A DNA stretch of 64,000 nt from Sphingobium xenophagum NBRC 107872 (GTDB lineage Bacteria > Pseudomonadota > Alphaproteobacteria > Sphingomonadales > Sphingomonadaceae): positions 124,001-188,000 of the forward strand of contig NZ_BARE01000001.1 of NCBI RefSeq assembly GCF_000367345.1, read 5' to 3'. A program made the position numbers and the translations under genes. Of this stretch, positions 56,601-61,874 are shown in pieces (position 1 is the stretch's first letter; each line of letters begins with the position of its first letter). The notes below the pieces were generated by a model that searched no databases, had not been told where the DNA came from, and saw only the letters and a list, made by a program, of their open reading frames with translations.

Positions 56601-57350
56601 ATGCTCGACGCCACCCTGACGCAGCAGCTCAAGGCCTATCTGGTCAACATCCGTGAGCCTATCGAACTCGTCGCCTCTCTGGGTGACGACGCCAAATCGC
56701 GCGAACTCAATGACCTGCTCAATGAAATCGCCGCCCTGTCCGACAAGGTCAGCGTGACCACCGGCGCTGACAAGCGCGTCCCCAGCTTCATGATCCGCCG
56801 CGTGGGCACCGACATCGGCGTCCGGTTCGCGGGGATTCCGATGGGCCATGAGTTCACGTCGCTGGTCCTCGCCCTCCTCCAGGTCGGCGGCCACCCGTCA
56901 AAGGCCGCGCAGGATTTGATCGAACAGGTCAAGGGGCTGGACGGCGACTTTGCCTTTGAAACCTATTTCTCCCTGTCCTGCCAGAATTGCCCGGACGTGG
57001 TGCAGGCTTTGAACCTGATGAGCGTCCTCAACCCCCGCATCAGCCACGTCGCCATCGACGGCGCGCTGTTCAAGGCGGAGGTGGACGAGCGCAAGGTGAT
57101 GGCCGTGCCCACCATCTTCCTGAACGGCGAACCCTTTGGGTCGGGCCGCATGGAACTGGAGCAGATCGTTGCCAAAATCGACAGCGGCGCGGCCACCCGC
57201 GCGGCGGAAAAGATCAAGCGCCAGGACCCGTTCGAGGTGCTGATCGTCGGCGGCGGGCCTGCCGGGGCGGCGGCGGCCATCTATGCCGCGCGCAAGGGCA
57301 TCCGCACCGGCGTTGCCGCCGAACGCTTCGGCGGTCAGGTGGACTTGTAA
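56601..57350 (+). pseudogene. ahpF: ahpF 5' part, interrupted by an insertion sequence
   Basis: The first 246 codons of alkyl hydroperoxide reductase F are normal: thioredoxin-like N-terminal domain with redox pair Cys127/Cys130 (LSCQNCPD), then the FAD-binding loop [19 protein letters not shown]. After codon 246 (base 57338) the frame passes into the IS3-family element, adds a few residues and stops at 57348-57350. The fragment lacks the C-terminal CPHC redox pair and the NADH domain, so it cannot transfer electrons from NADH. Confidence 0.95.
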
Positions 57351-57370
57351 CGGATTTGCGCCGGTCACCT
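57340..57370. repeat. Left inverted repeat of the IS3-family element
   Basis: 31 bases matching the right end 58538-58568 inverted, with differences at two positions. The outer three bases are TGG. Confidence 0.95.
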
Positions 57371-57404
57371 GAGCGATTAGAGCTCGCAACAGGAGACCGA
57401 CGAG

Positions 57405-57677
57405 ATGATCAAGCACACAGAAGAGTTCAAGCAGGAGGCGGTGCGGATTGCACTGACCAGCGGGTTACCCCGCGACAGGGTTGCATCGGATTTGGGGATA
57501 GGGAAGTCGACGCTGGGCAAATGGGTGTCACAGTATCGGCCATCTGACCTGGTGGCAGCGCCGCAGGCAGATCTGGCGCGTGAGAATGAACGCCTTCGTC
57601 TTGAGAACCGTGTGCTGCGGGAGGAGAGGGAAGTGCTAAAAAAGGCCACGCAGTTCTTCGCGAGCCAAAGGCCGTGA
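57405..57677 (+). CDS. IS3-family transposase OrfA
   Basis: 90 aa. FKQEAVRIALTSGLPRDRVA with GIGKSTLGKWV is the helix-turn-helix that binds the terminal repeats; LARENERLRLENRVLREERE is the leucine-zipper dimerisation region. OrfA alone often acts as repressor. AAAAAAG at 57638-57644 near the 3' end is a typical site for -1 frameshifting into orfB, producing the OrfAB transposase. Confidence 0.93.
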   Translation: MIKHTEEFKQEAVRIALTSGLPRDRVASDLGIGKSTLGKWVSQYRPSDLVAAPQADLARENERLRLENRVLREEREVLKKATQFFASQRP

Positions 57678-58531
57678 AGTTCGCTTTTGTGCATAGCTGG
57701 CGGCATCGTTGGCCCGTTGAACTGCTCTGCCGTGTCATGGATGTCAGTGAACGCGGCTATCGTTCCTGGCGCTCGCGCCCGATTAGCAGGCGGGAGCGGA
57801 CAGATATGAAAGTGCTGGCCCATATCCGGGAACAGTACAGGCTGAGCCTTGGCAGCTACGGCCGTCCTCGCATGACGATGGAGTTGAAGGAGGTGGGGCT
57901 CGATGTTGGCGAGCGCCGGGTCGGGCGCCTGATGAAGATCAACGGGATCAAGCCAGTCCGCACGCGCAAGCACAAGGTTACGACTGATAGCCACCATCGC
58001 CTGGGTGTCGCAGCGAACTGGCTGGACGGCGATTTTGCCGCAGATGCGCCCAACCGTAAATGGGCCGGCGACATCACATATATCTGGACATCCGAAGGCT
58101 GGCTCTACCTCGCCGTCATCCTGGACCTGCATAGCCGCCGCGTCGTGGGCTGGGCTGTCAGTGACAGGATGAAGAAGGACCTGGCGATCAGGGCGCTGGA
58201 TATGGCGGTGCGCCTGCGCCAGCCTCCGGAAGGCTGCCTTTTCCATTCGGATCGCGGCAGCCAATATTGCTCTTACGACTATCAGAAAAAGCTGCAGGCC
58301 TATGGCCTGCGTCCATCGATGAGCGGCAAGGGAAATTGCTACGACAATGCGTCCGTCGAGACGTTCTTCAAATCCCTGAAGGCCGAACTCATCTGGCGGC
58401 AGAGCTGGCCAACGCGGCGACAAGCAGAGGCTGCCATCTTCCAGTACATCAATGGGTTCTACAACACCCGCCGTCGCCATTCATATCTGGGCGGCATTAG
58501 CCCGCTCGCGTTCGAAGCCAAGGTGGCATAA
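57674..58531 (+). CDS. IS3-family transposase OrfB (catalytic DDE part)
   Basis: 285 aa, in the -1 frame relative to orfA and open back to the slippery site, so the active product is probably an OrfAB fusion. The integrase core has the DDE residues in AGDITYIWT, FHSDRGSQYCS and NASVETFFKSLKAE, and the end FYNTRRRHSYLGGISP is typical of the IS3 group. As an independent start the GTG at 57674 overlaps the orfA stop as GTGA. Confidence 0.94.
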   Translation: MKFAFVHSWRHRWPVELLCRVMDVSERGYRSWRSRPISRRERTDMKVLAHIREQYRLSLGSYGRPRMTMELKEVGLDVGERRVGRLMKINGIKPVRTRKHKVTTDSHHRLGVAANWLDGDFAADAPNRKWAGDITYIWTSEGWLYLAVILDLHSRRVVGWAVSDRMKKDLAIRALDMAVRLRQPPEGCLFHSDRGSQYCSYDYQKKLQAYGLRPSMSGKGNCYDNASVETFFKSLKAELIWRQSWPTRRQAEAAIFQYINGFYNTRRRHSYLGGISPLAFEAKVA

Positions 58532-58537
58532 TGAGGT

Positions 58538-58568
58538 AGGTGACCGGCACAAAACCGTTACAAGTCCA
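58538..58568. repeat. Right inverted repeat of the IS3-family element
   Basis: Mirror of 57340-57370 with two mismatches. It is followed by the second copy of the AGG target duplication. Confidence 0.95.
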
Positions 58569-58570
58569 AG

Positions 58571-59413
58571 GTGCTCGACACGATGGACATCGAAAATTTC
58601 ATCTCCGTGTCGCGCACCGAAGGGCCAAAGCTCGCTTCCGCGCTCGAAGCCCATGTGAAGGATTATGACGTCGAGATCATGAACCTGCAAAAGGCGACGA
58701 AGCTGATCCCCGCCCGCACCGAAGGCGGCTATCATGAGGTTGTGCTGGAAAACGGCGCGTCGCTCAAAGGCCGCACCCTCATCCTCTCCACCGGCGCGCG
58801 CTGGCGGCAGATGGGCGTGCCGGGCGAGGACGAGTATCGCAACAAGGGCGTGGCCTATTGCCCCCATTGCGACGGCCCCCTGTTCAAGGGCAAGCGCGTC
58901 GCGGTGATCGGCGGCGGCAATAGCGGCGTCGAAGCCGCGATCGACCTGGCGGGCATCGTCGCCCATGTGACGCTGATCGAATTTGACAGCCAGCTGCGCG
59001 CCGACGCGGTGCTGCAACGCAAGCTCGCCAGCCTGCCCAACGTCAAGATCATCACATCGGCGCTGACCAGCGAGGTCGACGGCAATGGCGATCGCGTCAC
59101 CGGCCTGTCCTACAAGGACCGCAACAGCGGCGAGGAACATGACATCGAACTGGAAGGCATCTTCGTCCAGATCGGTCTGGTCCCCAACACCGAATGGCTG
59201 AAAGACACGGTCGCCCTTTCACCCCGCGGCGAAATAGAAATCGACGCCCGCGGCGAAACCAGCGTGCCGGGCATCTTCGCGGCAGGCGACTGCACGACCG
59301 TGCCCTACAAGCAGATCGTCATCGCCATGGGCGCAGGCTCCACGGCGGGCCTGTCAGCCTTCGACTATCTGATCCGCCTGCCCGCCAGCGAAGAAGCCGC
59401 GCAGGCGGCGTGA
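58571..59413 (+). pseudogene. ahpF: ahpF 3' part, separated from its 5' end by an insertion sequence
   Basis: 280 codons that continue AhpF exactly after removal of the element and one AGG (246 + 280 = about 526 aa, close to the 521 of E. coli AhpF). It contains the second redox pair CPHC (97/100 of this part), NADH loop [11 protein letters not shown] and the closing FAD motif [20 protein letters not shown] at 58571 and an ATG in codon 5 could start a fragment resembling a thioredoxin-reductase core lacking its first FAD loop. Otherwise it is not expressed as AhpF. Confidence 0.93.
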
Positions 59414-59483: not shown

Positions 59484-59566
59484 GGGGTGGGGAATGGCAG
59501 AATTGCGCCATTTGTAGCCGCCCAGTGGCTCATTTTAATTTCCCGAAAGTAGTCGTTCTTTGAACT

Positions 59567-60901
59567 TCAGGCGTTACCATTTGCTTTGACGGGAGACGGC
59601 CTAGACTTAAGGCCGAGCCGGTGCGCTTTTCCAATCACCGAATTCCTGCTCATGTCACCTATCGCTTCCGCAATCTGCGACGCCGTCTTGCCATCCGACC
59701 ACATCGTACGCAGCAAGTCGATACGGTCATCTGTCCATTTGCTTGCTACCTCAGAGGAAAGAGTTCCCTCTACTTCGTCTATCATTGCATCCGTCCGAGC
59801 CTGTTCAGGTTGGAATGGCCGATTGTAATGCTGAACGATGCTTAGCGTTGTAACGCCGACGTCGGATACGCCTTGCAGTACCGCAACCTTAGTCTCCTTC
59901 TCCAACTGCGAAAATTCAGCCCACTCGACCGCGAACGCCTCAAAACGCCGGTCCGGAACGCGGACGCGAAGATACGTGTCGTCATTTAGGATGAGCACGG
60001 TCCTGGGAAATCCGCTGCCACCGCCTTCAACCGCTTGGACCACCTCTGTAACTCCGAAATCGGCCAGAAGATCATTAAACGATCCTCGGTAGTCGGCGAT
60101 ATCCAGCGATTGAGTATAGTGACGCATAGCGATGACGAAGTCGACAACGCGCCTATACTTGATGACAGCGCGCGCCGCATCTCGAACGGTGCCAGCGCTA
60201 ATTGTTTGCAACATAGCGGCCTTCAGATCTTGGATCTGCTCAATGATCGCATCTGCCCTCCGTCCCTCCGACTTTTTTGCCCGAGAATCCCTTAGCAGCA
60301 TTTGAAACAGCCCGGACCACTGCTTGACCAGATGGGCTTCGATCTCACCATAATTGCTATAGGGCGTCAAAGCATTGTTGGATGACAAGTGAGTGAGGAA
60401 CGTTATGAACTCGAAGATATACTTCGACGTCTCCGGTTTCTGTATCGAAGCGTAGGAAATCCTGTCGGCGAAATCCTCGTCTTTGTTTTTTGTGTAGGTA
60501 TGATGGTCGGCGTAGACTTTCGCGTCCACGAACGTAAAGATGGGGATGCCGAGGTCCATAGCGCGAAGGGCTTCAAGCTGAGTGATCGAGTATTTCACTC
60601 CGTCGCTTGCCGATCCATCTCCTGTCAGTTTGGATGAGACGTTCCCGGCATCGAGCTCGGAGAGTGCCTCGGGCACAGCGGTCCCGCCGAAGCGCGAACC
60701 GATCAGGAGTACTACCATGTCAGCGTTCTGAACTTCCGCGATGCAACTGGAATGGGTGTGCTTGGCGGGATCGTAAAGAACGTCAGAATAATCGCTCATC
60801 ACTGGATCGTAGCCCATACGTATCAACAACGCTCTGATCTGTTCCCGATGCGACCCCAAATCGATGCACGTTGACGATACAAATACCCTAAGTGCTGGCA
60901 C
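59567..60901 (-). CDS. DUF4062 protein with C-terminal GcrA-like DNA-binding domain
   Basis: 444 aa from GTG 60901. Residues 4-130 are DUF4062: RVFVSSTCIDLGSHREQI, then VVLLIGSRFGG and SITQLEALRAMDLGIPIFTFV. A helical middle (about 195-290) and an unknown segment (about 300-385) follow. Residues 389-437 read WTDDRIDLLRTMWSDGKTAS, QIAEAIGDMSRNSVIGKAHR, LGLKSRPSP, closely matching the N-terminal DNA-binding domain of the cell-cycle regulator GcrA. GTG 60901 is chosen because TAGGGAAAACA precedes it and DUF4062 begins at once; GTG 61075 would add 58 atypical residues with no ribosome site. The gene is richer in A and T than its neighbours and stands alone, suggesting acquisition. Function unknown. 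Confidence 0.8.
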   Translation of the reverse strand: MPALRVFVSSTCIDLGSHREQIRALLIRMGYDPVMSDYSDVLYDPAKHTHSSCIAEVQNADMVVLLIGSRFGGTAVPEALSELDAGNVSSKLTGDGSASDGVKYSITQLEALRAMDLGIPIFTFVDAKVYADHHTYTKNKDEDFADRISYASIQKPETSKYIFEFITFLTHLSSNNALTPYSNYGEIEAHLVKQWSGLFQMLLRDSRAKKSEGRRADAIIEQIQDLKAAMLQTISAGTVRDAARAVIKYRRVVDFVIAMRHYTQSLDIADYRGSFNDLLADFGVTEVVQAVEGGGSGFPRTVLILNDDTYLRVRVPDRRFEAFAVEWAEFSQLEKETKVAVLQGVSDVGVTTLSIVQHYNRPFQPEQARTDAMIDEVEGTLSSEVASKWTDDRIDLLRTMWSDGKTASQIAEAIGDMSRNSVIGKAHRLGLKSRPSPVKANGNA

Positions 60902-61212
60902 TGTTTTCCCTAGCTTCTCTCGAATCTTCCTCGATGCTAGTGCCCGAAGGTTAAAGTAGCAACGGCGACGCCCTTTGCTCGATATAGACCGATTTAAGCG
61001 ATTGGTAACTTCGGTGAGGAATCGACTTTCACCGAATGATATAAACGATCGAGTCTGGCCGGGATGAAGCGACACGAACGACAGCTATGCGCCGCCCCTG
61101 CTCCGAACCCGACATTCCGCTATCGGCCAAAATGGAACGGGAAGAGAGCGACCAGCTGCCCCACCAAATCATTGGCGGGCAGCTGAATCAGGCTAAACGA
61201 TGCCAAGCAGCG
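60902..61212. other. Gap between the DUF4062 and VOC genes
   Basis: 311 bp on which I see no firm gene. It contains the first copy of an imperfect direct repeat (61080-61132) and, if the upstream start is used, 174 bp of the DUF4062-protein frame. Confidence 0.5.
61080..61132. repeat. Direct repeat flanking the VOC gene, copy 1
   Basis: ACAGCTATGCGCC then, 31 bases in, GACATTCCGCTATCGGCCAA. Copy 2 at 61812-61864 has GCAGCTATCGCC and GACATTCTGCAATCGGCCAA in the same order and spacing. Confidence 0.65.
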
Positions 61213-61611
61213 TCATTTGGGGAAGTGGATGCCGCATAGCTTGTTTCCATCTGGATCGCGGAAGTACGCGAGTACGATCGTACCCATAGACGCTGTTTCG
61301 CGAGGACCGGGCGCTACCTCGATCGACATGCCACCATTGGCAACTGCAGCATCATGAAACTGCTTCACCTGCTCTGACGAATTGCATGAAAAAGCAATGG
61401 TGCTGCCGTTCGCGACAGTTGCCGGTTCGTCATTGATCGGCTGGGTGACAATGAAATTGGCCCCATTCCCGCTGTTGTAGATCAGGCGCGTGTGGCCACT
61501 GTCGGCCACGTTGATCGTCGCCTCCCCAACTCCGAGGGTACCAAGCACCGTGTCGTAAAAGCGCTTCGCCCGGTCGATGTCGTTCGACCCCACCATCGTG
61601 TGAAAAAGCAT
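61213..61611 (-). CDS. VOC (glyoxalase/bleomycin resistance-like) family protein
   Basis: 132 aa. It starts MLFHTMVGSNDIDRAKRFYD and ends AYFRDPDGNKLCGIHF, the two beta-alpha-beta-beta-beta module signatures of the vicinal oxygen chelate superfamily. His4 and Glu-type ligands cannot be fully assigned. Substrate unknown; similar small proteins are often annotated as glyoxalases. AGGAG lies seven bases before ATG 61611. It is flanked by imperfect direct repeats. Confidence 0.85.
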   Translation of the reverse strand: MLFHTMVGSNDIDRAKRFYDTVLGTLGVGEATINVADSGHTRLIYNSGNGANFIVTQPINDEPATVANGSTIAFSCNSSEQVKQFHDAAVANGGMSIEVAPGPRETASMGTIVLAYFRDPDGNKLCGIHFPK

Positions 61612-61811
61612 GCATCTTCTCCTACTTGGGCCACGCCATGATTGAACACTGCCCGCGCTCGGCCATAGCAGGATCGAACGCGCGGTCACGCTTGAATCGT
61701 TGGGCTGACGTTGGCATGCTCGAATCGATAGGGACAGAAGTCGCACCTTGGCCGATGGGCGACAGGCAGCCATTTCCGCCCATGATCGTGTCGCCTGCCC
61801 CAAACAGGACC

Positions 61812-61864
61812 GGCAGCTATCGCCTCCTTCCCACCAGGGAGCTGACATTCTGCAATCGGCCAAT
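61812..61864. repeat. Direct repeat flanking the VOC gene, copy 2
   Basis: Counterpart of 61080-61132, same orientation, about 730 bp away. Conserved core GACATTCTGCAATCGGCCAA. Confidence 0.65.
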
Positions 61865-61874
61865 CCCCGCCCCC

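Follow-up and report, generated by a model that had tools for sequence, protein, structure and literature searches.

A Sphingobium DUF4062 protein ending in a GcrA-type DNA-binding domain: a probable Swarozyc-like anti-phage enzyme

The 64,000-nucleotide stretch of the Sphingobium xenophagum NBRC 107872 genome analysed here (contig NZ_BARE01000001.1, positions 124,001 to 188,000; hereafter the window) contains, on its minus strand at 59567..60901, a fusion gene for a 444-residue protein in which a TIR-like DUF4062 domain, a long helix, an auxiliary domain and the DNA-binding domain of the cell-cycle regulator GcrA follow one another. Our results suggest that this protein is a Swarozyc-like anti-phage suicide enzyme hydrolysing nicotinamide adenine dinucleotide (an NADase), docked by its GcrA-type domain on GANTC sites in the host DNA that are methylated by CcrM, a reading to which we assign a probability of roughly 0.6. 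The analysis shows the order of the domains, conservation of a putative catalytic glutamate, the single clade formed by the fused proteins, the missing sigma70-binding half of GcrA and the patchy distribution. DUF4062 NADase executioners with a sensor that reads the phage portal are already known from a bioRxiv preprint of May 2026 (PMC13174449); what is new is the addition of a GcrA DNA-binding module to a DUF4062 core.

The N-terminal domain (residues 1-180, 60362..60901, minus strand) matched Pfam DUF4062 (PF13271) at E=1.2e-15 over profile positions 1-72 of 82, with 57.9 bits against a cut-off of 24.7, and its fold was scored as TIR-like. Within it, Glu110 of an S-x-T-Q-x-E motif (codon at 60572..60574, in a helix predicted by the AlphaFold2 model to span residues 106-117) was invariant in all 45 aligned proteins and in 33 of the 33 loci examined out of 50 fetched, the other 17 having longer, broken or very divergent frames or being a duplicate; from a further set of 31 sequences L044, L047 and L067 were also excluded. 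Its conservation makes Glu110 the likely catalytic residue, and it may superpose on E97 of the characterised protein KpSwz. Behind the head the model places a long helix (residues 184-232, 60206..60352), in the position of the Swarozyc stalk, and then the auxiliary, putatively sensing region (residues 233-384, 59750..60205), which is modelled as a domain of roughly 150 residues and is found in proteins carrying the label PF26934. Fold searches with the auxiliary domain against structure entries up to 2026-04-08 gave no clear match, the listed rows not including KpSwz, and no PADLOC model matched the fusion protein at E<=1. The initial annotation had placed DUF4062 in the context of STAND-type signalling NTPases with a possible part in defence. 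Defence is still the likeliest role; the NTPase context was not borne out, since no NACHT or NB-ARC domain was matched by Pfam at E<=1, and the characterised active members of DUF4062, a TIR-like domain in its own right, are NAD+ hydrolases (PMC13174449).

In that preprint DUF4062 proteins are described as TIR-like NADases, and KpSwz is reported to guard E. coli from phages by NAD+ depletion, for which it needs both E97 and its auxiliary domain; the phage portal is the activator, and the abortive infection system was named Swarozyc. Like KpSwz (PDB 10wc, 11cq and 11cv), the fusion protein combines an N-terminal TIR-like DUF4062 domain bearing a conserved glutamate, a helix behind the head and an additional C-terminal domain in a single gene of patchy spread. 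For its auxiliary domain a sequence comparison with 10wc gave nothing at E<=10, the auxiliary domain of KpSwz being of an HTH/winged, portal-binding type, and the fusion protein has the GcrA DNA-binding domain in addition. A profile search of the PDB found KpSwz (10wc) as the sole bacterial DUF4062 chain, with a weak match (E=0.28). By analogy with KpSwz we infer the same NADase chemistry for the fusion protein. Three of the four human DUF4062 proteins tested in the preprint did not hydrolyse NAD+, so the presence of the domain alone is no proof of activity (PMC13174449).

The C-terminal domain (residues 388-439, 59585..59740, minus strand) resembles GcrA in profile, sequence and structure comparisons. 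It matched Pfam GcrA (PF07750) at E=1.8e-15 over positions 2-53 of 155, well above the cut-off, and NCBIfam GcrA (NF050816) at E=2.2e-16 over positions 2-54 of 173; the NCBIfam score of 60.6 bits lies below the cut-off of 280 set for full-length proteins, the match being confined to the first third of the profile. The two matches obtained in a sequence search of the PDB were both GcrA (E=2.6e-12 and 1e-11), and the predicted fold superposed on 5yiv, the structure of GcrA on methylated DNA, with a root-mean-square deviation of 0.5 Å (TMt 0.95). Sequence identity was 57% to Caulobacter GcrA over 44 residues and 69% to the full-length GcrA that the host genome holds (locus L001). According to a review (PMC7403470), residues 1-45 of GcrA recognise methylated promoter DNA and residues 108-173 bind sigma. 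The fusion protein thus shares with GcrA the DNA-binding domain, which is C-terminal in the fusion and N-terminal in GcrA, whereas the sigma70-interacting half is absent, as judged from the coverage of both profiles. When 34 fused proteins were aligned, the GcrA part proved to be one of the well-conserved regions. A helix motif, SRNAVIGKAHRL, is found in 27 of 36 fused proteins and in the host's full-length GcrA, and the window copy has SRNSVIGKAHRL. Even the residues behind the domain are host-like in the window copy (SRPSPVKAN), and a pattern search found SRPSPVK-like residues in seven others; this retention of GcrA-like residues suggests that the module was captured from the 5' part of a sphingomonad gcrA. 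The host genome also contains a methylase of N6_N4_Mtase plus RAMA architecture, which we take for CcrM, and a second N6_N4 methylase match. In the relative G004, an unrelated 489-residue protein (L113:864-2333) without a DUF4062 match has its C-terminus formed by a GcrA DNA-binding domain as well (E=1.4e-15), so the module is also found at the end of another protein.

Both end domains, the start at 60901 and the single gene had been proposed in the initial annotation, and all withstood the analysis. The minus-strand open frame runs without interruption from 61075 to the stop at 59567, and the GTG at 60901 is the start used by most of the aligned fused homologues, which begin with the motif M-P/A-x-LRVFVSSTC. 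That the two domains were joined by a sequencing error is contradicted by the occurrence of the same order elsewhere. In a protein search that scored the 7998 candidates sharing most words and gave 748 matches, 36 of the 120 listed matches, the window's own protein (P0002) included, carry the Pfam GcrA label. P0033, which has a degenerate GcrA segment and no such label, was assigned to the fused group by hand, bringing the group to 37, and the fused order is kept down to 44-46% identity among the listed matches. The remaining 83 have the core, labelled PF26934, without GcrA, at 42-53% identity. Such unfused proteins, for example P0057 of Klebsiella aerogenes and P0100 of Vibrio cholerae, share the TIR-like and auxiliary core and, in those that were aligned, Glu110; where the fusion protein has its GcrA domain they have an acidic or neutral tail, or, in eight cases, a basic one. 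We found no paper describing the combination of DUF4062 with GcrA in literature searches on both families, which did not extend to supplements, and the main text of PMC13174449 mentions neither GcrA nor methylation; for P0010 and P0022, one database source already names both domains.

A FastTree phylogeny of 120 proteins, built from 360 columns of the core without the GcrA part, placed all 37 fused proteins in one clade with a support of 0.995, and the fusion therefore appears to have arisen once. With midpoint rooting, ten proteins stand beside the fused clade (group support 0.70), and eight of them have basic C-terminal tails, a tail being counted as basic when its 45 residues carry a net charge of +3 or more; the other 73 unfused proteins have acidic or neutral tails. 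The basic tails (P0040, P0041, P0042, P0044, P0045, P0046, P0048 and P0050) carry net charges of +4 to +15 over 45 residues and are perhaps a second way of binding nucleic acid. The ratio of nonsynonymous to synonymous substitution rates (dN/dS) between the window copy and the copy at L023, which is 84% identical, was 0.044 in the TIR-like part, 0.021 in the stalk, 0.077 in the auxiliary part and 0.105 in the GcrA part, compared with 0.405 across the 22 codons that precede GcrA (residues 365-386, 59744..59809, minus strand); these values are rough, since they derive from a single pair of genes whose dS exceeds 1 everywhere except in the 22-codon stretch. The GcrA part thus looks constrained and the stretch preceding it much less so. 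We conclude that the fusion is real, and apparently old and selected. One branch of the DUF4062 family carries, apparently after a single and lasting acquisition, the DNA-binding domain of the reader of CcrM methylation in alphaproteobacteria, which raises the question of whether an abortive-infection enzyme can be positioned or gated by the epigenetic marks of its host.

A working scheme can be drawn up by extension from the KpSwz work. In oligomers the TIR-like heads would be held silent; contact between the auxiliary domain and a phage component would make them rearrange, hydrolyse NAD+ and halt the infected cell. The several GcrA parts of an oligomer could bind clustered GANTC sites with avidity, most plausibly including the cluster upstream of the fusion gene itself. 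The protein would thereby be tethered to host DNA and would likely curb its own expression, so that the lethal enzyme stays low until infection. GANTC is rare in the window, with 60 sites seen where 211 are expected from base composition, and the only place in the 64 kb with four sites within 400 bp is the region directly upstream of the fusion gene (sites at 60922, 61019, 61051 and 61185, spanning 60922..61189). A Poisson estimate gives 0.0006 for four sites in 400 bp, a single-place figure uncorrected for scanning. The copy at L023 has three upstream sites, whose positions do not align by eye and a number that 3.4% of contig windows reach, and the copies at L024 and L025 have none upstream. 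Autoregulation through upstream GANTC sites is therefore suggested for the window copy and not for the family.

The question of which part senses infection separates the reading above from its closest rival, in which the executioner is the same and the GcrA part is the sensor, releasing the NADase when it reads the GANTC methylation of incoming or replicating phage DNA. In its fold and helix residues the GcrA part largely agrees with a domain whose structure was determined on methylated DNA, the host has both GcrA and a CcrM-like methylase, and GcrA-like proteins are also encoded by phages (PMC3556154). However, proteins from several phyla have the core without GcrA and retain the putative catalytic glutamate, which implies that the core probably has a trigger of its own. 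For this reason the conserved auxiliary domain is more likely the infection sensor than the GcrA part, and we regard sensing by the GcrA part as improbable, if worth keeping in view. A slightly smaller chance is given to a related scheme, in which the enzyme would be parked silent on fully methylated host GANTC sites and under- or differently methylated phage DNA would fire NAD+ destruction; if true, it would be an epigenetic self/non-self immune sensor built from a cell-cycle regulator. Methylation sensing by the GcrA part, as put forward in the initial annotation, is possible, and autoregulation or tethering would fit as well.

A different role altogether would be that of a transcription regulator, with a TIR-like part for the sensing or hydrolysis of a nucleotide and a GcrA part for the control of target genes. 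The apparent purifying selection on the DNA-binding domain and the GANTC cluster upstream of the gene would suit such a protein, yet the half of GcrA that interacts with sigma70 is absent, the distribution is patchy, and the neighbours of the core family include some defence or phage genes (an observation made without a control set), and we consider this role quite unlikely. Somewhat lower still we place an effector whose substrate would be not NAD+ but another nucleotide or a deoxynucleotide, hydrolysed in the manner of DNPH1 and deoxyribosyltransferase enzymes, so that the phage is starved of DNA precursors while the GcrA part docks the effector on DNA. Decoy domains occur in plant TIR receptors, and by that precedent the GcrA part could mimic GcrA so as to catch a phage protein that targets it or to displace a GcrA encoded by the phage. 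Phage homologues of GcrA do exist (PMC3556154), but good conservation of the DNA-facing helix, as seen here, is no obvious requirement of a protein decoy, and this last idea seems very unlikely. The Swarozyc-like NADase docked on host GANTC sites remains our preferred reading.

A search for the core with a threshold of E<=1e-20 gave matches in 3 of 397 genomes sampled from the family, 2 of 396 from the order and 1 of 385 from the class, samples that overlap; in each sample only the genome of the window itself had the full-length core, and the others (G150 and G454) had 35-36% matches over approximately residues 4-234. In a separate search of 100 genomes, its own included, 97 were matched, besides the gene itself nearly all through GcrA-type segments; G011 gave an additional, distant DUF4062 match. 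The fused copies at L023, L024 and L025 lie in other gene surroundings, one of them adjoining an integrase. Among the genes next to unfused relatives are brxA/brxB, at L058, and one for a type I restriction enzyme, at L037. The neighbour scan covered 99 of 104 open reading frames at 27 loci, five doubtful frames of L023 and L024 having been dropped, and had no control set; terminase and repressor-type families were among the 99 neighbours, 20 of which came from five viral contigs. Against PADLOC, 47 families were matched, 25 of them listed, and four of ten rechecked reading frames matched.

In the window the fusion gene and a small glyoxalase-family gene make up an islet between ahpF and ykuD (59494..61873), bounded by the points at which the alignment with the relative G020 ends (59493) and restarts (61874). 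The gap between ahpF and ykuD is variable in the genus, the two genes being adjacent in G012 and separated by other genes in at least five other genomes (G020, G002, G014, G019 and G022). The fusion gene has a GC content of 0.53, compared with 0.60-0.71 in 2-kb steps of the window outside the region. The view that it belongs to an accessory islet beside an insertion sequence was upheld as regards the islet; the insertion sequence (57405-58531) is 1.0 kb from the fusion gene and does not border the islet. This IS3-type element splits an ahpF-like gene (56601-59413; thioredoxin-like front, pyridine nucleotide-disulphide oxidoreductase back) that is a single frame in relatives such as G014 (L107). 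In G014 the glyoxalase-family gene unit (61129-61862) recurs with 94% identity in another position (L091), which suggests mobility of the unit as a whole. A sequence of approximately 115 bp with imperfect inverted ends (61749-61864) is present at many places in relatives and in one copy in this genome, where part of its end is repeated at 61109-61130.
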